The position numbers and the translations under genes were made by a program. Below, one piece after another: positions 29,423 through 63,318 of a stretch of DNA of 64,000 nucleotides (positions within the stretch are counted from its first letter, which is position 1; each line of letters starts with the position of its first letter). The notes below the pieces were generated by a model, which was not told where the DNA came from, made no database searches, and saw nothing but the letters and a program-made list of their open reading frames with translations. Origin of the DNA: Methylopila jiangsuensis (GTDB lineage: Bacteria; Pseudomonadota; Alphaproteobacteria; Rhizobiales; Methylopilaceae); NCBI RefSeq assembly GCF_027922305.1, contig NZ_BSFK01000005.1, forward strand, positions 248,001-312,000. Direction: 5' to 3'.

Positions 29423-30820
29423 ATGGCGGATGAGTTCGATCGGCTGCTCGCCGGTCTGCCGAGGCGTCGCGTGCTGGTGGTGTCCGATCGCTACCCGCCC
29501 GACGAGGGCGGCGGCGCGGAGCGGAGCCTGCACCTGCTGCTGCGGGAGCCTCGGCTGCGCGATCAGGCCATGGTGGTGACCTTCGAGAAGGGGGCGTCGG
29601 CGCCTTTGCGGCGCAAGGTGGAGGGCGTGGACGCGCTCGTCCTGCCGGCGTTCGCCGCCTGGCCGCTGCACCGCCTGACCCAGGCCGAGGTGAACCGCCT
29701 GAAGCGGCGGCCCTTCGGCCTGAAGTGGCTGGCGTTCGCCCGGCAGGCCGCGGCCGAACTGGCGGAGGCGCCGCCCGAACGGGCGGAGGCCTTCGCGGCG
29801 CGCTATCTGGCGCGCCCGCCGGGCGGCGTCGCCATGACTCACCGCACCACGCCCGGCGGCGGCCATGAACAGGCGCTCGTCCGCATCATCGCGCAGGTGC
29901 GGCCGGAGCTGATCCACGCCGACAACGCCCGCGCGATCGAGGTGGCGGCCGGCGCGGCGCCGGCGGGCCTTCCCATCGTGGCGGTGATCCGCGACCACCG
30001 CTTCTCAACGCCGCGCTTCGACCAGCATCTGGAGCCGGCCGACGCCCCGCAGAGCTGGGCGGAGACGCTCGCCGCGCGCTTCGCCGACGAGGCGCTGGCC
30101 TTCCGCCGCGACCGGCTCGGGCGCGCGGCGCTGACGCTGGTGGCGAGCGCCCATCTGGAGCGGCTGGCGCGGGAGCTTCTGCCCCCGGCGAAGGTGCGCC
30201 GGCTGCCGCTCACCCCCATCGCGCCGGGCTCCGAGACGCCCGAGCCGGCGTCGGGCTTCGACGTGCTGACGGTGGGGACCCTCACCCCGAAGAAGGGCCA
30301 GCGCCGCCTGCTCGACCTGTGGCCGCAGGTGCTGGAGGCGGTGCCCGAGGCGCGGCTGCACATCGTGGGCGAAGGCTCGTGCCGCCGGTCGATCGAAGAC
30401 GGCATCGGACAGCTGGGCCTTCAGGCGAGCGTGCAGATGCACGGACGGGCCGAGGGGGAGGCCCTCGAACGGCTTTTCGCGGATTGCCATGTGGTCGCGC
30501 TTCCCACCGCCTGGCCCGAGCCGTTCGGGCGCGTGGCGCTGGAGGCGGGCGCCCATGGCCGTCCGGTCGTGGCCTATGCGGTCGGCGGCCACGCCGAGAC
30601 CATCGTCCATGGCGAGACCGGCCTTCTGGCGCCGCCGGACGACGGCGAGGCCTTCGTGTCCGCGCTGACGGCGCTGGCGCGCGATCCGGCGCTCAGGGTC
30701 CGCCTTGGCGCGGCGGGGCGCGAGCGCGCCGCGGCGTTCGCGCCGGAGCCTCTGGCCCGCGGGCTGGAGGAGCTCTGGGATGACGTCGTCGCGGGCGGCG
30801 GCGCACGGCTCGCCGGCTGA
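29423..30820 (+). CDS. GT4-type glycosyltransferase
   Basis: 465 residues, GT-B fold. The N-terminal half starts with VSDRYPPDEGGGAERSLHLL, the acceptor-domain pattern of GT4 enzymes. The C-terminal half shows VGTLTPKKGQRRLLDLW, LHIVGEG and the EX7E-type donor site in WPEPFGRVALEAGAHG, followed by GGHAETIVHGETGLL. A retaining sugar transferase acting at the cytoplasmic face. Donor and acceptor are not readable from sequence. It precedes a sialyltransferase-motif protein by 7 bases, and the run of same-strand genes to 35978 suggests a role in a surface glycan. Confidence 0.9.
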   Translation: MADEFDRLLAGLPRRRVLVVSDRYPPDEGGGAERSLHLLLREPRLRDQAMVVTFEKGASAPLRRKVEGVDALVLPAFAAWPLHRLTQAEVNRLKRRPFGLKWLAFARQAAAELAEAPPERAEAFAARYLARPPGGVAMTHRTTPGGGHEQALVRIIAQVRPELIHADNARAIEVAAGAAPAGLPIVAVIRDHRFSTPRFDQHLEPADAPQSWAETLAARFADEALAFRRDRLGRAALTLVASAHLERLARELLPPAKVRRLPLTPIAPGSETPEPASGFDVLTVGTLTPKKGQRRLLDLWPQVLEAVPEARLHIVGEGSCRRSIEDGIGQLGLQASVQMHGRAEGEALERLFADCHVVALPTAWPEPFGRVALEAGAHGRPVVAYAVGGHAETIVHGETGLLAPPDDGEAFVSALTALARDPALRVRLGAAGRERAAAFAPEPLARGLEELWDDVVAGGGARLAG

Positions 30821-30827
30821 TGTCCGC

Positions 30828-31937
30828 ATGACGGCCGGTCTCAGTCTCGCGGTGGCGTCGTCGCCGCTCCAGCTCATGAACGCGATGGAGTGGCGCGCGC
30901 GCCGGTCGGGCGGAGAGGCCGACCTCGTCCTGCTCGGCGACCGGGCGGGCGGCGGCGGCGCGGTTGAGGCGCTGCTGGCGCGGCGGCCCGGTCTGTGGCG
31001 GCGGGTGCTGCGCGTGTCCGGCCGTCCCCGTCCCGCGCCTTACGCCCCGCGCCTGATGCGGGACGCGGCGGACGCCCTGCACAGGAGCGCGTTGCGACGG
31101 CTCGCGGCGTCGCTTGGCGGCGAGGCCTATGGCGAACTCGCCTTCGGGGACTACCGCAACCTGTCCCAGCGCACGCTGACCGAGCGTGTTCCCCGTGTCC
31201 GGCTCACGCTGCTGGACGACGGCTCCATCACGCCGCAGGCGGCGCGGTGGCGCGCGGGACTGCCGACGCCGGACCCCAGGCGCTTCACCGACGGGTGGTT
31301 CCGCACGGGCCTCGCCCGCGCCATGCTCGGCGATCCGCCCCGGTTCGAGCCGCCGCAGGTGACGTTCTTCACGATCTATGGCCGCCTGCTGGACAGCGTC
31401 ATCCGGCCTGACGACCGCGTTGAGCCACACGCCTTCGAGAGTTTCCGCTCCGAGCGGCGAGCGGGGCGGGGCGAGACCGTCTGGCTGCTCGGCGCAAACC
31501 ATGTGGAGGCGCGGATCGCCGATCCGGACCGTCACGTCGCTCTGGTGCGCGACGGCGTGGCGGCTCTTCGGCGCGAAGGGCTGACCGGCCCGATCGTCTA
31601 CCGCCCGCACCGGGGCGAGAACCCGGACCGGGCGTCGCGGCTGGCCGCGGAAGCCGGCTTAGCCTTCGAGCCGGCGGCGCTTCCCATCGAGCTCGCGTAT
31701 CTGGAGGCGGAGCGGCGTCCCGCGGCGGTGGCGGTGATCGCCTCGTCCGCGGCGGACACGCTGGCGGCCATAGATCCGGCGCTACCGATCTACCGTTTTG
31801 GGCTTCCGCAAGGATACCTGCGCCGGCAGAGAGATCACATCCTCGCCGTTGTTCGGGCGCATGACGCTTTCAACCCAAGGATTCACGTCGTATGTCCTGA
31901 CGCGGAATCACCCTCGGAAGCGCCCGCCGCCTTATGA
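30828..31937 (+). CDS. Putative bacterial sialyltransferase/polysialyltransferase-like glycosyltransferase
   Basis: 369 residues. The start reads LAVASSPLQLMNAMEW, the N-terminal signature of the polysialyltransferase/GT52-type proteins. Three short motifs known from bacterial sialyltransferases can be found in order: an acidic D-D-G (D130-G132 in LTLLDDGS), an HP-type motif (P260-H261 in IVYRPHRGE) and a Ser-Ser motif (S306-S307 in VIASSAADTL). Such enzymes use CMP-activated nonulosonic acids, which fits the CMP-synthetase gene 3 kb downstream. The ATG at 30828 is preferred; an ATG at 30780 inside the previous gene is in frame. The next gene overlaps its stop by ATGA. Function is inferred, not proven. 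Confidence 0.65.
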   Translation: MTAGLSLAVASSPLQLMNAMEWRARRSGGEADLVLLGDRAGGGGAVEALLARRPGLWRRVLRVSGRPRPAPYAPRLMRDAADALHRSALRRLAASLGGEAYGELAFGDYRNLSQRTLTERVPRVRLTLLDDGSITPQAARWRAGLPTPDPRRFTDGWFRTGLARAMLGDPPRFEPPQVTFFTIYGRLLDSVIRPDDRVEPHAFESFRSERRAGRGETVWLLGANHVEARIADPDRHVALVRDGVAALRREGLTGPIVYRPHRGENPDRASRLAAEAGLAFEPAALPIELAYLEAERRPAAVAVIASSAADTLAAIDPALPIYRFGLPQGYLRRQRDHILAVVRAHDAFNPRIHVVCPDAESPSEAPAAL

Positions 31938-33244
31938 CGTCTTCGCCAGCGACGCCACTGACTGACGCCTCGGAAGGACGCTTCGCCGGCCGCCGGGTGC
32001 TGGCGATCGGAACCTACGATTCATTTGTGAAGACGGCGGCGATGATCGGCCGCAGGTTTGAGGCCGAAGGCGCCAGCCTGAAGCTCGCGGCGCTCGCCGC
32101 CTCGGCCGGGCAGCTGTCGCTGCGCCAGCTGCGCGCCGGCGGCGTTCACGAGACGGTGCCGATCGTCGCCGCCCAGCGGCTGGTGAACGAGCGCCTGTTC
32201 CGCGACGCCCATGTGGTGATCGCGGTGGTGGACGGCGGCCGCGCCCGCGAACTGTTTCTCGCGCTCGCCGCGGCCGATCTGAGCCGCGAGCCCTCCCGCC
32301 CCATCGTCGCCGTGGCTTCGCCGGGCGTGGTGCTGGCGGATCATCTCGCCGGCTTCATGAGCCGGGCGCCGGCCGACCTGGTCTGCTTCAACACCGAGAG
32401 CGACCTTGCGCTGTATCAGGCCGCGGCCGCAGAGATCGGCGTAGACGACACCAACGGCATCGTCACCGGCCTGCTCGGGCTCGACCATGCGCCGCGCCCT
32501 GCGCCCCAGGGGCGGCCGAGCGTGGTGTTCTTCGAGCAGCCGGTGATCCCGGCGCGGCGCATGCAGCGGCTGCACATCCTCGGCGAACTGACCGCGCTGG
32601 CGCGCCGGTTCCCGGACGCGGACATCGCCATCAAGCTGCGTCACGCCCGTGACGAGACCGCCCATCACAACGCGCGCTTTCACCTCGAGGACCTTGCGCG
32701 CGAGGTGTTCGCGCGGGGCGGGCGGCCGGACAATCTGACCTTCACCCACGAGCCGGCGAGCGAGCTGCTGGAGCGCGCCTCGCTGGCTGTGACGGTGAGC
32801 TCCACCGTCGCGATCGAGGCCATGGCGCGCGGCGTGCCGACCCGGATCATCTCGGATTTCGGCGTCTCGGAAGCGCTCGGCACCGGTTTCTTCGTGGGTT
32901 CGGGCTGTCTTGCGCCCATGGCGTCGCTGACGCCGCACATGCCCGAGACCGTGGATCGCGACTGGCTCGCGGCGCGCTCCGGCGCGAGCCCGGACGCCGA
33001 AGCGCTGCTGAGCCGGTGCGTCGGCCTGCTTCAGGGCCAGGACGGGTTGGGCGCGGCGCTGCCGCTGCGATCGCTGGTTCCAGCCTACGGATCGCCCGAC
33101 TGGCTGGCCTTCGCGCTGGGCCGCGCCGGTCCCATCGCCCTGCATGCGCCGCATCTGATCGAAAAACCCAAGCTTGGCGCGGGATTGGTCGCGGCCATGG
33201 CGAAGCGCTTGAGGCAGGTGCGCCGGTTCACGCCTCGAGGGTAA
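31934..33244 (+). CDS. Putative glycosyltransferase, DUF6716-like
   Basis: 436 residues. Starts after about 20 residues with GRRVLAIGTYDSFVKTAAMI, a Rossmann-like first strand. The second half contains VVFFEQPVIPARRMQRLHILGEL, DIAIKLRHARDE, FTHEPASELLERASLAVTVS and the SSTVAIEAMARGVPTRIISDFG segment. That last part resembles the donor-site end of GT-B enzymes and of capsule-type transferases. I recall similar proteins being annotated DUF6716 putative glycosyltransferase. Overlaps the upstream gene by four bases, so it is probably a functional partner. No signal peptide or membrane segment seen. Confidence 0.65.
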   Translation: MTSSPATPLTDASEGRFAGRRVLAIGTYDSFVKTAAMIGRRFEAEGASLKLAALAASAGQLSLRQLRAGGVHETVPIVAAQRLVNERLFRDAHVVIAVVDGGRARELFLALAAADLSREPSRPIVAVASPGVVLADHLAGFMSRAPADLVCFNTESDLALYQAAAAEIGVDDTNGIVTGLLGLDHAPRPAPQGRPSVVFFEQPVIPARRMQRLHILGELTALARRFPDADIAIKLRHARDETAHHNARFHLEDLAREVFARGGRPDNLTFTHEPASELLERASLAVTVSSTVAIEAMARGVPTRIISDFGVSEALGTGFFVGSGCLAPMASLTPHMPETVDRDWLAARSGASPDAEALLSRCVGLLQGQDGLGAALPLRSLVPAYGSPDWLAFALGRAGPIALHAPHLIEKPKLGAGLVAAMAKRLRQVRRFTPRG

Positions 33245-33311
33245 TATCTGGATACCGTCTTTTCTTTCCGACGCCGCCGATCTATGGTGCGTCGCACAAT
33301 CAGGAGAGAGC

Positions 33312-33695
33312 ATGGCTAATCGTTACGCCGTCGGCGAGCGCGACACCCGGCCCTGGGGGACCTGGGAGGTTGTCGCGGGGGGAGACGACTACGTGGTCAA
33401 GCGTATTGTCGTCTCGCCGGGCGCGCGGTTGTCTCTGCAGCGTCACCAGTTTCGTGAAGAGCATTGGATTGTCGTCGCAGGCGAGGGTGTGGTGACCCGC
33501 GACGACGAACGCATCCCCGTCTCGCGCGGGGTGGCCGTCCACCTTCCTCTCCATTGCGTGCATCGCGTGGAGAACGGCGGCGCGGTCGATCTCGTGTTCA
33601 TCGAAGTGCAGCGGGGCGATCCGCTGGACGAGGATGACATCGAGCGCCTCGAGGACGATTATGGCCGGGCCCCGGAGGCTCCGCCTTCCGCGTGA
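33312..33695 (+). CDS. Mannose-6-phosphate isomerase type II-like cupin protein
   Basis: 127 residues, a single cupin domain. RPWGTWEVVAGGDDYVVKRIVV, LSLQRHQFREEHWIVVAGEG and VHLPLHCVHRVEN match the C-terminal isomerase domain of bifunctional PMI/GDP-mannose pyrophosphorylases (the HxH...E and later H metal ligands are present). Here it stands alone, with GGAGAG as ribosome site. It may interconvert fructose-6-P and mannose-6-P, supplying a mannose-type precursor to the adjacent NeuB-like synthase. That link is inference; standalone cupins of this type are often of unproven activity. Confidence 0.8.
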   Translation: MANRYAVGERDTRPWGTWEVVAGGDDYVVKRIVVSPGARLSLQRHQFREEHWIVVAGEGVVTRDDERIPVSRGVAVHLPLHCVHRVENGGAVDLVFIEVQRGDPLDEDDIERLEDDYGRAPEAPPSA

Positions 33696-33793
33696 GGGCG
33701 ACAAACTGATTTGGGATGGTCCGGGCGGGGGGCTCGGGCCGCCGAAGTTTTCGATCCGTATCGATCTGTTCGTTTAGGTTGGGAGACGTTCAC

Positions 33794-34669
33794 ATGGTTA
33801 AAGTCATCGCCGAAATCGGCTGCAATCACATGGGCAAGATGGACATCGCGAAGGAGCTGGTCTCCGTCGCGGCCCATGTCTGCAAGGCCGATTACGCCAA
33901 GTTCCAGAAGCGCAACAACCGCGAGCTGCTGTCGCCCGCGCAGTTCAGCGCGCCCCATCCGGTTCCCGCCAACTCCTACGGCGCGACGTACGGCGAGCAC
34001 CGCGAGGCGCTGGAGTTCACCGTCGAGCAGCATGCCGAGCTCAAGGAGTTCTGCGAGAGCCAGGGCATCGGCTACGCCACCTCGGTGTGGGACATGACCT
34101 CCGCCAAGGAGATCACCAGCCTCAAGCCGGACCTGATCAAGATCCCGTCCGCCACCAACTCCAACTTCGAGCTGCAGGGCTGGTTGGCCGAGAACTACGC
34201 CGGCGAGATCCACGTCTCCACCGGCATGACCACCAAGGACGAGATCGACACGCTGATCACGTTCTACGAGGAGCGCGGCCGCGCCAAGGACCTCGTGGTC
34301 TACTCCTGCACCTCCGGCTACCCGGTGGCGTTCGAGGACCTCTGCCTGCGCGAGATCACCCGCCTGCGCGAGAAGTTCGAGGACCGGGTCAAGAAGATCG
34401 GCTTCTCGGGCCATCACCTCGGCATCGCCGCAGACATCGCCGGCCTGGCGCTCGGCGCCGAGTGGATCGAGCGTCACTTCACGCTCGACCGCACCTGGAA
34501 GGGCACCGACCACGCCGCCTCGCTGGAGCCGGACGGCATGCGCCGTCTGGTGCGCGACCTGCACAACGTCGAGAAGGCCCTGACCTTCAAGTCCAAGGAC
34601 GTGCTCGACGTCGAGGACGTGCAGCGCAAGAAGCTCAAGTGGCAGCCGTCGCTGCGCGCGGTCTCCTGA
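33794..34669 (+). CDS. NeuB-family nonulosonate synthase (short form without SAF domain)
   Basis: 291 residues from the ATG at 33794 (MVKVIAEIGCNHMG). A TIM-barrel enzyme condensing PEP with a six-carbon sugar to a nine-carbon sugar acid. Seen: ADYAKFQKRN, KIPSATNSNFELQGWL, IHVSTGMTTKDEI, CTSGYPVAFEDLCLREI, IGFSGHHLGIAADIAGLALGA and ERHFTLDRTWKGTDHAASLEP, all matching the NeuB core. Canonical NeuB is about 345 residues and ends in an antifreeze-like SAF domain; this protein stops after the barrel. Substrate (ManNAc, mannose-6-P or another hexose) is not determined by sequence. Confidence 0.85.
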   Translation: MVKVIAEIGCNHMGKMDIAKELVSVAAHVCKADYAKFQKRNNRELLSPAQFSAPHPVPANSYGATYGEHREALEFTVEQHAELKEFCESQGIGYATSVWDMTSAKEITSLKPDLIKIPSATNSNFELQGWLAENYAGEIHVSTGMTTKDEIDTLITFYEERGRAKDLVVYSCTSGYPVAFEDLCLREITRLREKFEDRVKKIGFSGHHLGIAADIAGLALGAEWIERHFTLDRTWKGTDHAASLEPDGMRRLVRDLHNVEKALTFKSKDVLDVEDVQRKKLKWQPSLRAVS

Positions 34670-34698
34670 TCCGCGTCTGACGACCGATCCGATAGAGG

Positions 34699-34727
34699 AC
34701 GTGGCCGGCCCTGAAAGCCGGCCACGT
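34699..34727 (+). terminator. Hairpin between the NeuB-like and CMP-synthetase genes
   Basis: ACGTGGCCGGC and GCCGGCCACGT form a perfect 11-bp stem with a 7-base loop, followed by TTCGTTT. It lies 30 bases after the NeuB-like stop codon. It looks like an intrinsic terminator, which would make the next gene partly independent. Confidence 0.65.
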
Positions 34728-34802
34728 TTCGTTTGCGCGTGGACTCAAGCCGGTCTATCCGCGCGGACGAGCGAGATTTTTGAACCGGGGGAGAGACGAA
34801 TC

Positions 34803-35978
34803 GTGGGTTGCGTCGCGGTGATTCCGGCGCGTGGCGGGTCGAAAGGCGTGCCGCGCAAGAATGTCAGGCCGCTCGGCGGCGTGCCGCTGGTGGCGCGCAC
34901 GGTGGCCGCGGCGCTGGGCGCCAAGGGCGTGGACGCGGTCTATGTCTCCACCGACGACGCCGAGATCGCGTCCGTGGCCCGCGCGGCCGGCGCCGGCGTC
35001 ATCGACCGTCCGGCGGACATCTCCGGCGACAAGGCGTCGTCGGAATCGGCCCTGATCCACGCGCTCGACGTGCTTGAGGCGAGGGGAGAGCCGGCGGACG
35101 TGCTGGTGTTCCTGCAATGCACCTCGCCCTTCACCACATCGGACGAAATCGAGCGGGCGGTCGCCGCCATCGGGCGCGACGGGACGGTCGCGGCCTTCAC
35201 CGCCTCGCCCAACCACGGGTTCTTGTGGTCGCGGGCGGCGGACGGCTCGGCGCAGGGCGTCAACCACGACCACACGCAGCCCCGCAAGCGCCGGCAGGAG
35301 CTTGAGCCGCAGTATCTCGAGACCGGCGCGGTCTACGCCATGGACGTGAAGGCGTTCCGCGCCGCCGGGCATCGCTTCTGCGGCCGCACCGCCCTGATCG
35401 AGGTGGACACCCCGCCGGTGGAGATCGACAGCGAGGCCGATTTCAAGGTGATCGAGGCCATCCTCGCCAAGCGCGAGGGCGCGGCCGCGCCGCGCGTCCC
35501 GTCCGGGATCAGGGCGCTGGTGATGGACTTCGACGGCGTGTTCACCGACGACCGGGTCTGGGTCGACCAGGACGGCCGCGAGGCGGTGATGGCGAGCCGC
35601 TCCGACGGCATGGGCCTCGGCCGGCTGCGAAAGCTCACCGGCATCCGTCCGCTGATCCTGTCCAAGGAGCCGAACCCGGTGGTCTCCGCCCGCGGCCGCA
35701 AGCTGGACATCGAGGTGCGGCAGGGCATCGACGACAAGCTGCCGGAGCTGGACCGCTGGCTCGCCCAGCACGGCGTCACCCGCGCGGAGACGGTCTACAT
35801 CGGCAACGACGTGAACGATCTGGAGTGCATGCGCGCGGTCGGCTTCGCGGTCGCGCCCGCCGACGCCCGGCCCGAGGCCAAGGACGCAGCGCAGCTCGTG
35901 CTCGCCGCCGAAGGCGGCAAGGGCGCGCTGCGCGAGCTGTGCGAGGCGCTGATCGCGGCCAATCCGCGGGCGGGCTGA
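34803..35978 (+). CDS. CMP-nonulosonate synthetase fused to a HAD phosphatase
   Basis: 391 residues from a GTG at 34803, preceded by GGGGGAGAG. Residues 1 to about 225 form an acylneuraminate cytidylyltransferase: AVIPARGGSKGVPRKNVRPLGG (nucleotide-binding loop), YVSTDDAEIA, FLQCTSPF and the C-terminal EIDSEADFKVIE. Residues about 235-385 form a KdsC-like HAD phosphatase: VMDFDGVFTDDRVWVDQDG with the DxD nucleophile, SRSDGMGLGRL, and VYIGNDVNDLECMRAVGFAVAPADA. The same order of domains occurs in animal CMP-sialic acid synthetases. The fusion suggests the synthase product is a 9-phosphate that is dephosphorylated, then CMP-activated. Confidence 0.9.
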   Translation: MGCVAVIPARGGSKGVPRKNVRPLGGVPLVARTVAAALGAKGVDAVYVSTDDAEIASVARAAGAGVIDRPADISGDKASSESALIHALDVLEARGEPADVLVFLQCTSPFTTSDEIERAVAAIGRDGTVAAFTASPNHGFLWSRAADGSAQGVNHDHTQPRKRRQELEPQYLETGAVYAMDVKAFRAAGHRFCGRTALIEVDTPPVEIDSEADFKVIEAILAKREGAAAPRVPSGIRALVMDFDGVFTDDRVWVDQDGREAVMASRSDGMGLGRLRKLTGIRPLILSKEPNPVVSARGRKLDIEVRQGIDDKLPELDRWLAQHGVTRAETVYIGNDVNDLECMRAVGFAVAPADARPEAKDAAQLVLAAEGGKGALRELCEALIAANPRAG

Positions 35979-59930: not shown

Positions 59931-61115
59931 TCAGCCGGCGCTCGGCGCCGAGTTGGAGCGCGTGATCTGCACCTTCGGCCGGCCTTCCACGCCGCCGAAC
60001 GAGCGGTAGACGTATTTGTCGCGGCCGGACTGCGCCGCCTTCAGCGCCAGCGACGTGATCTTGGCGTGGAACGGCGACAGCGAGCAGGCCGGGTCCGCGT
60101 TGGCCGGATCGCCGGTGATGGCGAGCGCCTGGCAACGGCAGCCGCCGAAGTCGATCTCCTTGCGCGGGCAGGAGGTGCAGGGCTCCTTCATCCAGCTCGT
60201 GCCGCGATAGGCCTCGAAGGCCGAGCCGTTGGTCCAGATCTCCGACAGGCTCTTTTCGGTGACGTAGTCGAACTGGAGATGCGTGATGGTCTCGGCCGCG
60301 TGGCAGGGCAGCACCTTGCCCTGGGGCGTGACGTTGAGCGACTGCTTGCCCCAGCCGCCGACGCAGGGCTTCGGGCGGCGAGCGTAATAGTCCGGCACCA
60401 CCGCGTCGATGACGAGCTTGCCCTGAAGCTGCTCGCGCAGGCGCTCCACCGTCTCGGCCGCTTTCATCACCTGCTCGCGCGTGGGCATGAGCATGTTCCG
60501 GTTTTCCAGCGCCCAGCCGTAATATTGCGAGTGGGCCACCTCCACCCGGCGGGCGCCGAACTCCAGCGCCATGTTCACCAGCGCCTCGATGTTCTCGATG
60601 TTGGCGCGGTGGATCACGGCGTTGATGGTCAGCGGCAGGCCGAGGTCCAGCACATGGGCGGCGAGCACGCGCTTCTTCTCGTGCGCGCCCTTGAGGCCGG
60701 CGATGCGGTCGGCGTTGTCGGGCAGCGCGTCCTGGATCGAGAGCTGGACGTGGTCGAGGCCGGCGTCCGCCAGCTCCTGCAGCTTCTCGCGGGTGACGCC
60801 GATGCCGGAGGTGATCAGGTTGGTGTAGAGCCCGACCTTCACCGCGTGCGCGGTCAGCTCCACGATGTCCTTCCGGGCCGTGGGCTCGCCGCCGGACAGA
60901 TGCAGGTGCAGCACGCCCATGGCGGCGGCTTCGGAGAACACGCGCTTCCAGGTCTCGGTGTCGAGCTCGGTGGAGCGCTTGTCCAGATCGACCGGGTTCG
61001 AGCAATAGGGGCAGGACAGGGGGCAGCGATGCGTCAGCTCCGCCAGCATGCCGAGCGGCGCCGGCGGCGGCACGCGGGTGGCCGTGGCGGCGTTGGGAAC
61101 GGTCATGTCGTTCAT
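59931..61115 (-). CDS. pqqE: PqqA peptide cyclase (radical SAM)
   Basis: 394 residues from the ATG at 61115. Forms the carbon-carbon bond between Glu and Tyr of PqqA, the first PQQ step. Seen: the radical-SAM cluster [11 protein letters not shown] (CxxxCxxC), [34 protein letters not shown], and the SPASM-domain cysteines in [27 protein letters not shown]. Last gene of the operon, separated from pqqD by about 195 bases with hairpins. Confidence 0.97.
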
Positions 61116-61140
61116 TTCGCGTTCCTCCTCCTGGGCGGCG

Positions 61141-61192
61141 CCGGCGATTGTCGCCGGTCGCGCCTCGGGCCTGTCCGGTAAGGACAGGCCCG
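61141..61192 (-). repeat. Two adjacent hairpins between pqqD and pqqE
   Basis: CCGGCGA-TTG-TCGCCGG (61141-61157) and CGGGCCTGTCC with GGACAGGCCCG around a 5-base loop (61166-61192) lie 26-77 bases upstream of the pqqE start, within the leader on the minus strand. They could be an mRNA-stabilising or attenuating element, or a REP-like palindrome. Confidence 0.5.
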
Positions 61193-61310
61193 TCATCGGG
61201 CCTTGCGCGGAAGCCATCGAGCGCCGCTTCCGGTCGACGCCCATGCCTTTCCGCCGGTTCGGCCGCGCCTTTTACGGCGTCTTCAGGGGCCGAACGCCGC
61301 GTCTCGCGGC

Positions 61311-61592
61311 TCAGCCCAGATCCAGCACCCGCTTGTCGGCGAGATCGGCCAGCATGACCTTCACGTCGGCCTCGATCTGCTCCGCCGGGGCGGCGTAGGC
61401 CGTGGCGAGATCATCCACGATCTGCGCCACGCTGCGGACGCCGTCGCAGCGTTCGAGCACGGCGACCGCGATCGGGTTCGGCTTCAGCACGCGCTCGGGA
61501 GCGAGCAGCAGCCACTCGTTGCGCACCTCGTCGCGGCGAAGACGCACGCCGCGCGGAAGTTTCGGCACATGGTCCGAGGACACCTCGGTCAT
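61311..61592 (-). CDS. pqqD: PqqA-binding chaperone PqqD
   Basis: 93 residues from the ATG at 61592 (MTEVSSDHVPKLPRGVRLRRD). Small winged-helix peptide-binding protein that presents PqqA to PqqE. Seen: NEWLLLAPERVLKPNPIAVAVLERCDG and a C-terminal LADLADKRVLDL. Its ATG overlaps the pqqC stop (ATGA). In some methylotrophs pqqC and pqqD are fused; here they are separate genes. Confidence 0.95.
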   Translation of the reverse strand: MTEVSSDHVPKLPRGVRLRRDEVRNEWLLLAPERVLKPNPIAVAVLERCDGVRSVAQIVDDLATAYAAPAEQIEADVKVMLADLADKRVLDLG

Positions 61593-62344
61593 TCGGCGGC
61601 CTGTTTCGCCGCGCCGTCCTCGGCGTGGAACGCGTCCGGCCACGGCTTGGCGTAGATGTAGCCGTGCTCCAGCGCGTCCAGCATGGTCCAGAGCATGGAG
61701 CACTTGAATTCCAGCGCCGCGATCACCGCGTCCTGCTCGGCGCGGGTTTTCGCGTGCTCGGTCACGTAGGCGAGGGCGAAGTCGCTGTCGCGCTTGGCCT
61801 GCACCGGGCGCTTGTTGAAATAGGCCAGCGTCTCGGGCGTGACGTAGTCGTAGTTCGCCAGCATGCCCTCGGAGCGGACCTTGATCACCGACGGCGAGAA
61901 CAGCTCGGTCAGCGAGGACGCCACGGCTTCCGTCAGCGGCCGGTCGCGCACGAAGCAGAGATAGGACGTCACCGCGAATTTGGTGGCGGGCAGGGCCAGC
62001 CGGCCGGAGGTCACGGTCGCGCGGTCGAGGCCGAGATCGTCGGTCAGCTTCAGCCACTTGGCGATGCCGCCCTCGCCCTCGTGCTCGCCGTCATGGTCGA
62101 CGATGCGCTGGCGCCAGGCGCGGCGGTCGTCCGCGTTCTCCATCCGCGCCAGAATGTGCGCGTCCTTCTGGGGAATGCAGGCCTGATAGAGATAGCGGTT
62201 CAGCGCCCAGGCCTCGACCTCGGTGCGGGAGCACTGGCCGGACTGCAGGCGGATCTGGAACGGATGCAGGCTGTGATACCGCCGCGCGCCCACGTCGCGC
62301 AGGCGCGCCTCAAGCTCCGAAGCCGAAAGAAGATCAGCAGGCAT
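61589..62344 (-). CDS. pqqC: Pyrroloquinoline-quinone synthase
   Basis: 251 residues. Cofactor-free oxidase for the final ring closure and eight-electron oxidation to PQQ. Seen: RYHSLHPFQIRLQSGQCSR, ALNRYLYQACIPQKDAHILAR, IVDHDGEHEGEGGIAKWLKL and MLANYDYVTPETLAYFNKR. All are strongly characteristic. Starts 23 bases after the pqqB stop. Confidence 0.97.
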   Translation of the reverse strand: MPADLLSASELEARLRDVGARRYHSLHPFQIRLQSGQCSRTEVEAWALNRYLYQACIPQKDAHILARMENADDRRAWRQRIVDHDGEHEGEGGIAKWLKLTDDLGLDRATVTSGRLALPATKFAVTSYLCFVRDRPLTEAVASSLTELFSPSVIKVRSEGMLANYDYVTPETLAYFNKRPVQAKRDSDFALAYVTEHAKTRAEQDAVIAALEFKCSMLWTMLDALEHGYIYAKPWPDAFHAEDGAAKQAAE

Positions 62345-62367
62345 GGCGCAAACGTCCTCCGCGAGTG

Positions 62368-63318
62368 TCAGGCCGCGGTTGACCCGCGGTCCGCTTCGAT
62401 CCGGCGTCCGGTGGAGCCGCCCAGCGCGATCTCCATGCCGTCCTCCGAAACCTCCCATCCCGCCGCCTCGACGGCGCGCCGCTCGGGCGAGCCGGAGATC
62501 AGGACCGGATTGGTGTTGTTGATGTGAATATAGATCTTCCGACCGACCTTCACACCTTTGAATGCGTCCAGAGAGCCGCCGTCGCCCGACATGGGGACGT
62601 GGCCCATGCGGCGGCCGGTCTTCACGCCGACGCCGGCCTTGCGCATCTCGTCGTCCTCGAACACCGTTCCGTCGAACAGCAGGGCGTCGGCGCCGTCCAC
62701 GCGGGCCAGCACGTCGTCGTTCACCACGGCGCAGCCGGGAATGTAGACGAGGCGCGATCCGCCCCGGCGGATGTCGACGCCGACGGTCTCGCCGCCCACG
62801 TCGCCGATCACGAGGCTCTCGGTCTCGAGATAGAGCGGCACCTTGCCCGGCACCCCGAAGAACTCCACCGTCGCCTCGTCGATGGCGAACGGCGCGCCGA
62901 GCGTGACGGAGGACTTCGCCACCATGTCCCTGGCGAGCACGCCATAGACCGGGTTGGCGTCGACGATGCCGAGGATTTCCGGCGTGCCGTACAGCGTGAG
63001 CGGCGAGCGCTCGCGCAGGGTGATCAGCCCGTCCACATGGTCCACGTCGCCGTTGGTCAGCGCCACGGAGCGGATCGGCGTCTCGCGCAGGCCGGTCGGC
63101 TGGATCTGCGGCGTGGCGAGAATCTGGGAGCGCAGGTCGGGGGAGGCGTTGAACAGGGTCCACAGACCTTGGCCGGTCTCGACCGCGATGGACGACTGCG
63201 TCCGCCGTTTGACCCGCGGGTCGCCCTCCCAGGCCAGCGCGCACACCGAACAGCGGCAATTCCACTGGGGATAGCCGCCGCCGGCGGCGGAACCGAGAAC
63301 GACCGTGCGCAACGCCAT
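62368..63318 (-). CDS. pqqB: PQQ biosynthesis protein PqqB
   Basis: 316 residues, metallo-beta-lactamase fold. Seen: VVLGSAAGGGYPQWNCRCSVC at the N-terminus (two cysteines), LTNGDVDHVDGLITLRE replacing the usual HxHxDH motif, MGHVPMSGDGGSLDAF and IYIHINNTNPVLI. In recent work PqqB hydroxylates the tyrosine-derived part of the cross-linked peptide; older annotations called it a PQQ carrier. Lies 51 bases downstream of pqqA. Confidence 0.96.
   Translation of the reverse strand: MALRTVVLGSAAGGGYPQWNCRCSVCALAWEGDPRVKRRTQSSIAVETGQGLWTLFNASPDLRSQILATPQIQPTGLRETPIRSVALTNGDVDHVDGLITLRERSPLTLYGTPEILGIVDANPVYGVLARDMVAKSSVTLGAPFAIDEATVEFFGVPGKVPLYLETESLVIGDVGGETVGVDIRRGGSRLVYIPGCAVVNDDVLARVDGADALLFDGTVFEDDEMRKAGVGVKTGRRMGHVPMSGDGGSLDAFKGVKVGRKIYIHINNTNPVLISGSPERRAVEAAGWEVSEDGMEIALGGSTGRRIEADRGSTAA

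Follow-up and report, generated by a model that had tools for sequence, protein, structure and literature searches.

Which sugar is made by the six-gene surface-glycan locus at positions 29423-35978 of the DNA analysed here, and how is it transferred? The DNA is a stretch of 64,000 nucleotides (hereafter the window) from the alphaproteobacterium Methylopila jiangsuensis (contig NZ_BSFK01000005.1), whose 3.7 Mb genome is rated 100% complete. The locus encodes, in this order and all on the forward strand, a GT4-type glycosyltransferase, a second putative transferase that we call GTx, a DUF6716 protein, a mannose-6-phosphate isomerase-type cupin, a short NeuB and a NeuA-type cytidine monophosphate (CMP)-sugar synthetase fused to a HAD phosphatase, an arrangement given by the initial annotation and confirmed by the sequence and by Pfam matches. 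From gene content, conservation, genome-wide gaps, a residue signature and a predicted fold, we infer a route, a sugar and an acceptor, the choice of Kdn being well supported, though not proven: the locus would make CMP-activated 2-keto-3-deoxynononic acid (CMP-Kdn) from mannose-6-phosphate and attach Kdn to a surface glycan. Mannose-6-phosphate would be supplied by an isomerase encoded elsewhere in the genome, and the local cupin would be a helper, either optional or decayed. Mannose-6-phosphate would then be joined to phosphoenolpyruvate by the short NeuB to give Kdn-9-phosphate, the HAD part of the fusion would release Kdn, the cytidylyltransferase part would convert it to CMP-Kdn, and GTx, DUF6716 and GT4 would build a Kdn-bearing capsule or lipopolysaccharide glycan. 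The Kdn pathway first proposed for the locus thus survives as the best reading, except that the cupin is not its necessary first step.

The choice of substrate turns on what the whole genome encodes. None of the three families that form N-acetylmannosamine (ManNAc), namely Epimerase_2, NanE and GlcNAc_2-epim, has a match in it, which is a stronger argument than the local gap from which the initial annotation had reasoned. Genes for legionaminic or pseudaminic acid (dehydratase, aminotransferase, acetyltransferase) are absent from the six, a statement that covers the locus and not the genome, and the window NeuB is the only NeuB match of the genome. A full GMP/phosphomannose isomerase (GMP_PMI), above cut-off, is encoded away from the locus. 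With no epimerase family, one NeuB, a full isomerase and a phosphatase, the gene content points to mannose-6-phosphate as the substrate, an epimerase outside the searched families being conceivable. The NeuB itself has PF03102 as its single Pfam family and no match to the SAF domain, which has a role in N-acetyl binding; the short NeuB and the CTP_transf_3-HAD fusion were both correctly recognised at the outset.

The phosphatase half of the fusion adds a residue signature. At least 522 stretches in the GTDB contig set encode a relative of the window NeuB; the best 80, 64-93% identical, were taken together with seven further loci, giving 87 short-NeuB loci. Among these, 73 have a NeuA and 67 a HAD in the fetched stretch, the two being fused in 63, and 20 have DUF6716 there; contig ends cut some of the 14 without NeuA. 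Residues 56 and 67 of the Bacteroides thetaiotaomicron KDN-9-phosphate (KDN-9-P) phosphatase (PDB 3e81), which we take to set its substrate preference, are glutamate and lysine; relative to 3e81, entries 4hgq and 4hgr carry alanine at 56, and 4hgr also at 67. The window HAD has both residues, as does every one of the 66 HAD domains from short-NeuB loci; R/A and R/S stand at these positions in 3n07 and 3mn1 respectively, two solved chains of the KdsC/YrbI type. The cytidylyltransferase half finds its best solved relatives in the CMP-N-acetylneuraminate synthetase 6ifd and in PpNeuA (9t4z).

The gene set is kept in relatives. The closest named NeuB relatives come from Methylopila turkensis (93% identity), Chelatococcus sambhunathii (86%) and two Hansschlegelia (77% and 76%), and in all four (loci L043-L046) adenine deaminase, GT4, GTx, DUF6716, NeuB and NeuA-HAD follow one another in a single order. 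Five window genes therefore keep order and strand downstream of the same adenine deaminase gene in four of four relatives, GT4 orthologs at the same place being 43-55% identical, which indicates more than a chance cluster. The cupin is found in one of the four, the Methylopila locus L043, so that the conserved unit comprises five genes, with the cupin optional, and the conservation expected of all six was borne out for five. In the four relatives NeuA-HAD is immediately followed, on the other strand, by a second DUF6716 homolog, Pfam-confirmed in three cases; no second copy occurs within the window, the rest of the genome not having been searched.

As a necessary step of the pathway, the cupin was considered and rejected. 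An intact HxH is the metal-binding motif of the type II mannose-6-phosphate isomerase cupin; it reads HKH in the Methylopila cupin and HIH in the genome's full GMP_PMI, and the window cupin has RHQF/HQF at this place, the second histidine being replaced by phenylalanine. Because three of the four syntenic loci lack it, its motif is altered and a full isomerase is encoded elsewhere, the cupin appears dispensable; a role in mannose-6-phosphate supply is possible, neither needed nor clear. Cupins of this type occur in five of the 87 short-NeuB loci (L042, L043, L076, L103 and L117), adjoining NeuB in L042 and lying 1.2 kb from it in L103 and 5.6 kb in L117, a co-occurrence in keeping with Kdn; the second metal-binding histidine is missing in L042 and L103 and kept in L117. 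These last three (L042:8765-9520, L103:10041-10802, L117:14427-15203) are about 250 aa long and begin with an extension whose sequence looks like CBS domains.

GTx has no Pfam or NCBIfam match at E 0.1, PF07388 and PF07922 included. The sialyltransferase motifs first ascribed to it are present as LLDDGS and ASS; the supposed 'HP' is in fact PHR, within RPHRGE. Its AlphaFold2 model (mean pLDDT 84.8, from six sequences) is closest in the PDB to a bacterial polysialyltransferase (5wcn/5wc6) and to the Neisseria lipooligosaccharide sialyltransferase (2yk7/2yk4). Sialyltransferases fill four of the top five places (E 6e-9 to 1e-5; query template modelling (TM) score 0.41-0.50; 10-16% identity), 5wcn at E 5.9e-9 and TM 0.49, with general GT-B enzymes and 2-epimerases ranking after them. 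We take 5wcn and 2yk7 to belong to CAZy families GT38 and GT52, and a profile-profile comparison between GTx and a GT52 set gave no significant result. When nine neighbour proteins of related loci were compared with Pfam, GT52/polysialyltransferase models matched three (one below cut-off) and GT4, capsule or related families matched others. The predicted fold makes it plausible that GTx is a dedicated CMP-nonulosonate transferase. For DUF6716, the second protein so proposed in the initial annotation, this is less certain: its model (mean pLDDT 85.6) is GT-B-like, and no sialyltransferase is among its 50 listed PDB matches. No paper of the literature searched names DUF6716. A 748-aa protein of Phaeobacter sp. 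B1627 (L056:3272-5518), near a short NeuB, is over its own residues 166-409 28% identical to GTx and appears to be a distant member of the GTx family.

How does the short NeuB relate to the enzymes already described? Among 385 alphaproteobacterial genomes, 169 have a NeuB match at E 0.001, and the window genome and seven others reach at least 57% identity to the window protein, the next full-length match being at 41%. Phage records gave one distant match (30%). For a midpoint-rooted tree, whose bootstrap did not settle, 93 rows were kept out of 140 by dropping duplicates and roughly half of the short clade. In it the short NeuBs form a clade with support of 100/100, whose rows span seven phyla: Pseudomonadota, Bacteroidota, Verrucomicrobiota, Bacillota, Myxococcota, Actinomycetota and that of one archaeal metagenome-assembled genome (MAG). 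The nearest group is a long, motif-bearing NeuB type (98/93); a larger group (100/99) holds the short clade, 17 of 18 BT1714-type rows and five motif-negative rows, and outside it fall Neisseria meningitidis NeuB, PseI, 6ncs and one row labelled BT1714 (L153). This grouping with most BT1714-type rows, apart from N. meningitidis NeuB and PseI, is in favour of Kdn.

The BT1714 type takes its name from B. thetaiotaomicron, where we take BT1713 to be the KDN-9-P phosphatase (3e81) and BT1714 the Kdn-9-phosphate synthase. A 137-residue stretch of 3e81 searched against 295 Bacteroidales genomes matched 33 at E 1e-30 or better; since none was identical, B. thetaiotaomicron was evidently not among them. 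Of 38 HADs in this set, 33 have the glutamate-lysine pair and five lack it. In 20 loci a separate phosphatase, with at most 70% identity to 3e81, adjoins a NeuB of mostly 345-360 aa; this NeuB is 33-36% identical to that of the window in 18 loci and 28.5% in one, and in the last the value is 41% across a fragment of 114 residues. Fused relatives, 47-54% identical to 3e81, adjoin the short NeuB type in eight loci. Both the low identity and the separate 100/100 clades led us to reject a BT1714-type assignment, and the notion that the window NeuB is of the kind found beside Bacteroides KDN-9-P phosphatases falls with it.

Two motifs, YGxHR and KG[TS]D, occur together in 91 of 112 NeuB cores; a HAD lies within 7 kb in 68 of these 91 and in 3 of the 21 motif-negative cores, and all four long motif-bearing NeuBs lack one nearby. 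As an independent sign of a phosphorylated substrate the motifs are not decisive, most loci having been fetched by similarity to one clade. Other NeuB architectures were seen. An alphaproteobacterial genome (L167) has a 278-aa NeuB without the motifs, separated by 15 bases from a HAD, alphaproteobacteria also have very long NeuB frames, some 760-820 aa, that are possibly akin to the Serratia NeuB-COG1082 fusion, and Nonomuraea gerenzanensis (NZ_LT559118.1; L190:7806-10031) has a single 742-aa frame comprising cytidylyltransferase, HAD and NeuB, its NeuB without either motif and a DUF6716 protein encoded some 2 kb further along.

Plasmids carry part of the same gene set. A tblastn search of the window NeuB against 72,556 plasmid records (E 1e-60) returned ten records, three of them from Sinorhizobium; GTx had no match in this collection at E 1e-8. 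In S. fredii NXT3 the trio of NeuB (68% identity), NeuA-HAD and DUF6716 comes after an ABC-2 permease and two proteins of capsule synthesis, with a methyltransferase gene following on the opposite strand, and S. fredii CCBAU 25509 has the same trio and methyltransferase. On pSymB of S. meliloti ml28, a permease and a capsule protein precede the trio, and annotated sialyltransferase and O-acetyltransferase genes lie 3' of it on the other strand. A 31-kb plasmid of Pseudorhodobacter turbinis combines the trio with GMP/PMI, methyltransferase and ABC transporter genes. PMC7845648 reports Kdn glycoconjugates of S. fredii SVQ293, a derivative of HH103, and a 5-O-methyl-Kdn polysaccharide is published for Sinorhizobium fredii, the sugar being named in the title of Gil-Serrano 1998. 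The S. fredii trio and methyltransferase, read in NXT3 and CCBAU 25509 rather than in the published strain, may therefore underlie the published Kdn polysaccharide.

Several observations weigh against Kdn. The main weakness is that the literature searched yielded no assayed member of the short NeuB clade, one published elsewhere being possible. The nearest BT1713-like phosphatases adjoin a different, long NeuB. The window NeuB scores 196.6 bits on the N-acetylneuraminate synthase equivalog TIGR03569, below its cut-off of 399.65. The HAD part reaches 84.2 bits on the KDN-9-P phosphatase model NF058599 (cut-off 180) and slightly more, 91.4, on KdsC models, likewise below cut-off; since the family models are all missed, we do not file it as an NF058599 member. 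We also located the equivalent of human Met42, the position of a known mutation, in the short-clade rows: of 87 readable rows, 71 have V, M, I or L there, 15 have T and one has N. The altered metal motif of the cupin stands on the same side. In 12 further genomes with a short NeuB, picked from the 80 loci, GlcNAc_2-epim has a match in seven, six above cut-off. The other families favour Kdn in these genomes: Epimerase_2 is missing from seven and found in five, NanE is missing from ten and found in two (one weak), and PF01050 is found in 11. It also favours Kdn that all three epimerase families are absent from a Methylopila, from Hansschlegelia quercus and from a deltaproteobacterial MAG, though the last is without a PF01050 match either, other isomerase types not having been searched. 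A last point against Kdn comes from plasmid pMaD10 of Marinovum algicola, where a gene annotated as N-acyl-D-glucosamine 2-epimerase lies at a distance of two genes from NeuA-HAD. This gene (L188:5317-6483) adjoins CST-I and would speak against pure Kdn there unless the enzyme acts on mannose.

One rival reading is an N-acyl sugar such as N-acetylneuraminic acid (Neu5Ac), which we consider unlikely. ManNAc or its 6-phosphate would come from a protein outside the three epimerase families, perhaps DUF6716, and NeuB would form Neu5Ac-9-phosphate. The DUF6716 model does match mostly UDP-N-acetylglucosamine 2-epimerases in the PDB, which leaves a small chance that the protein itself makes ManNAc, the Marinovum gene is in keeping with such a route, and the human synthase accepts ManNAc-6-phosphate as well as mannose-6-phosphate in the available portion of PMC7845648. 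However, the TM score of DUF6716 is only about 0.5 and GTx matches the same epimerases, so the likeness may reflect no more than a GT-B-like fold common to both. Moreover, only the minority of short-NeuB stretches counted above contain DUF6716, and both the missing epimerase families and the lack of a SAF match argue against an N-acyl sugar. A similarly small chance attaches to another nonulosonate or a modified Kdn (methylated, acetylated or built on a different hexose-6-phosphate), for which the core chemistry would be as proposed and the final sugar would differ: the methyltransferase and O-acetyltransferase genes near relatives and the distance of the short clade from characterised NeuBs in the tree are in its favour, against which no modifying-enzyme family matches any of the six window genes in Pfam. 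Least probable is an eight-carbon sugar of the 3-deoxy-D-manno-oct-2-ulosonic acid (Kdo) type, with arabinose-5-phosphate as NeuB substrate and the HAD as KdsC, because, despite the higher KdsC score, NeuB matches PF03102 alone in Pfam, the HAD lacks the R/x pair of the two solved KdsC/YrbI-type chains, and a separate KdsB, above its equivalog cut-off, is encoded elsewhere in the genome, KdsA and a separate KdsC not having been searched.

The layout of the locus fits close packing at its 5' end: GT4 and GTx are 7 bases apart, the DUF6716 start overlaps the GTx stop by 4 bases, and gaps of 67, 98 and 133 bases precede cupin, NeuB and NeuA-HAD. From the reading frames, NeuB most likely starts at 33794 rather than at 33716 of the longer open reading frame, the fused protein most likely at 34803, and GTx probably near 30828. 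The region also holds one sigma-70-like and one terminator-like site, neither used as evidence. Elsewhere in the window, 59934-63318 encodes radical SAM/SPASM and metallo-beta-lactamase-fold proteins (Pfam) that by eye resemble pyrroloquinoline quinone synthesis, which would fit a methylotroph.

Table 1 Genes of the candidate Kdn locus in the window, and the additional DUF6716 homologs of related loci
Feature	Position	Strand	Basis
GT4-type (GT-B) glycosyltransferase, 465 aa	29423..30820	+	Pfam Glycos_transf_1, 121.1 bits
GTx, 369 aa, likely CMP-nonulosonate (sialyl-type) transferase	30828..31937	+	predicted fold
DUF6716 putative glycosyltransferase, 436 aa	31934..33244	+	PF20471, 215.7 bits (cut-off 27)
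Stand-alone mannose-6-phosphate isomerase-type cupin, 127 aa	33312..33695	+	PF01050 (MannoseP_isomer), 114.8 bits (cut-off 23.6)
Short NeuB, 291 aa, predicted Kdn-9-phosphate synthase	33794..34669	+	PF03102, 227 bits (cut-off 22.1)
CMP-nonulosonate synthetase part of fused protein	34803..35504	+	CTP_transf_3, 74.5 bits (cut-off 22.6)
C0-type HAD phosphatase part, predicted Kdn-9-phosphate phosphatase	35505..35978	+	E56/K67 pair; models below cut-off
Second DUF6716 homolog	L043:10190-11830, L044:10146-11600, L045:10254-11606, L046:10120-11502	opposite strand	

To our knowledge, Kdn has long been treated as rare in bacteria, and its bacterial biosynthesis rests on very few characterised enzymes. 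The pathway is known; the novelty would lie in the clade of the synthase, in the phosphatase being part of a fusion and in transferases without an assigned family. Taken jointly, and as a tentative proposal that we rate below an even chance, the short NeuB clade, usually with its fused cytidylyltransferase-phosphatase, could be an unrecognised second type of Kdn-9-phosphate synthase, making Kdn a common nonulosonate of environmental bacteria; GTx and the NeuB-linked DUF6716 could be two new families of CMP-Kdn transferases; and the S. fredii plasmid locus could be the missing genetic basis of the Kdn polysaccharide. If so, a short NeuB with a fused NeuA-HAD bearing the glutamate-lysine pair would predict Kdn producers across phyla, the chemically known rhizobial polysaccharide would gain candidate genes, and enzymology would gain two transferase families that may use CMP-Kdn.

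Several known systems come close to the proposed one. The S. fredii plasmids share its NeuB/NeuA-HAD/DUF6716 trio, with a methyltransferase added and no GTx match. The polysialyltransferase 5wcn and the Neisseria enzyme 2yk7 are the top fold matches of GTx, but at low identity and with no Pfam family in common. In the Serratia marcescens KL1 and KL2 capsule loci, as given in the available portion of PMC9000132, a neuA/neuB pair is likewise present, neuB is required for sialic acid and Kdn is present in the capsule; the Serratia NeuB differs in carrying a COG1082 isomerase/epimerase domain, and that portion describes no fused HAD. A eukaryotic Kdn system, so far as its available account goes, combines a synthase specific for mannose-6-phosphate with a CMP-Kdn synthetase, shown there by nuclear magnetic resonance and mass spectrometry, and differs in that no phosphatase homolog was found there, unlike the HAD of the window. 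A further parallel is the Kdn pathway of B. thetaiotaomicron: compared through BT1713-like loci rather than BT1714 itself, it has a longer NeuB and a separate phosphatase, yet it comprises the same three reactions that we propose for the window, and the residues Glu56 and Lys67 of its phosphatase are kept in the window HAD.

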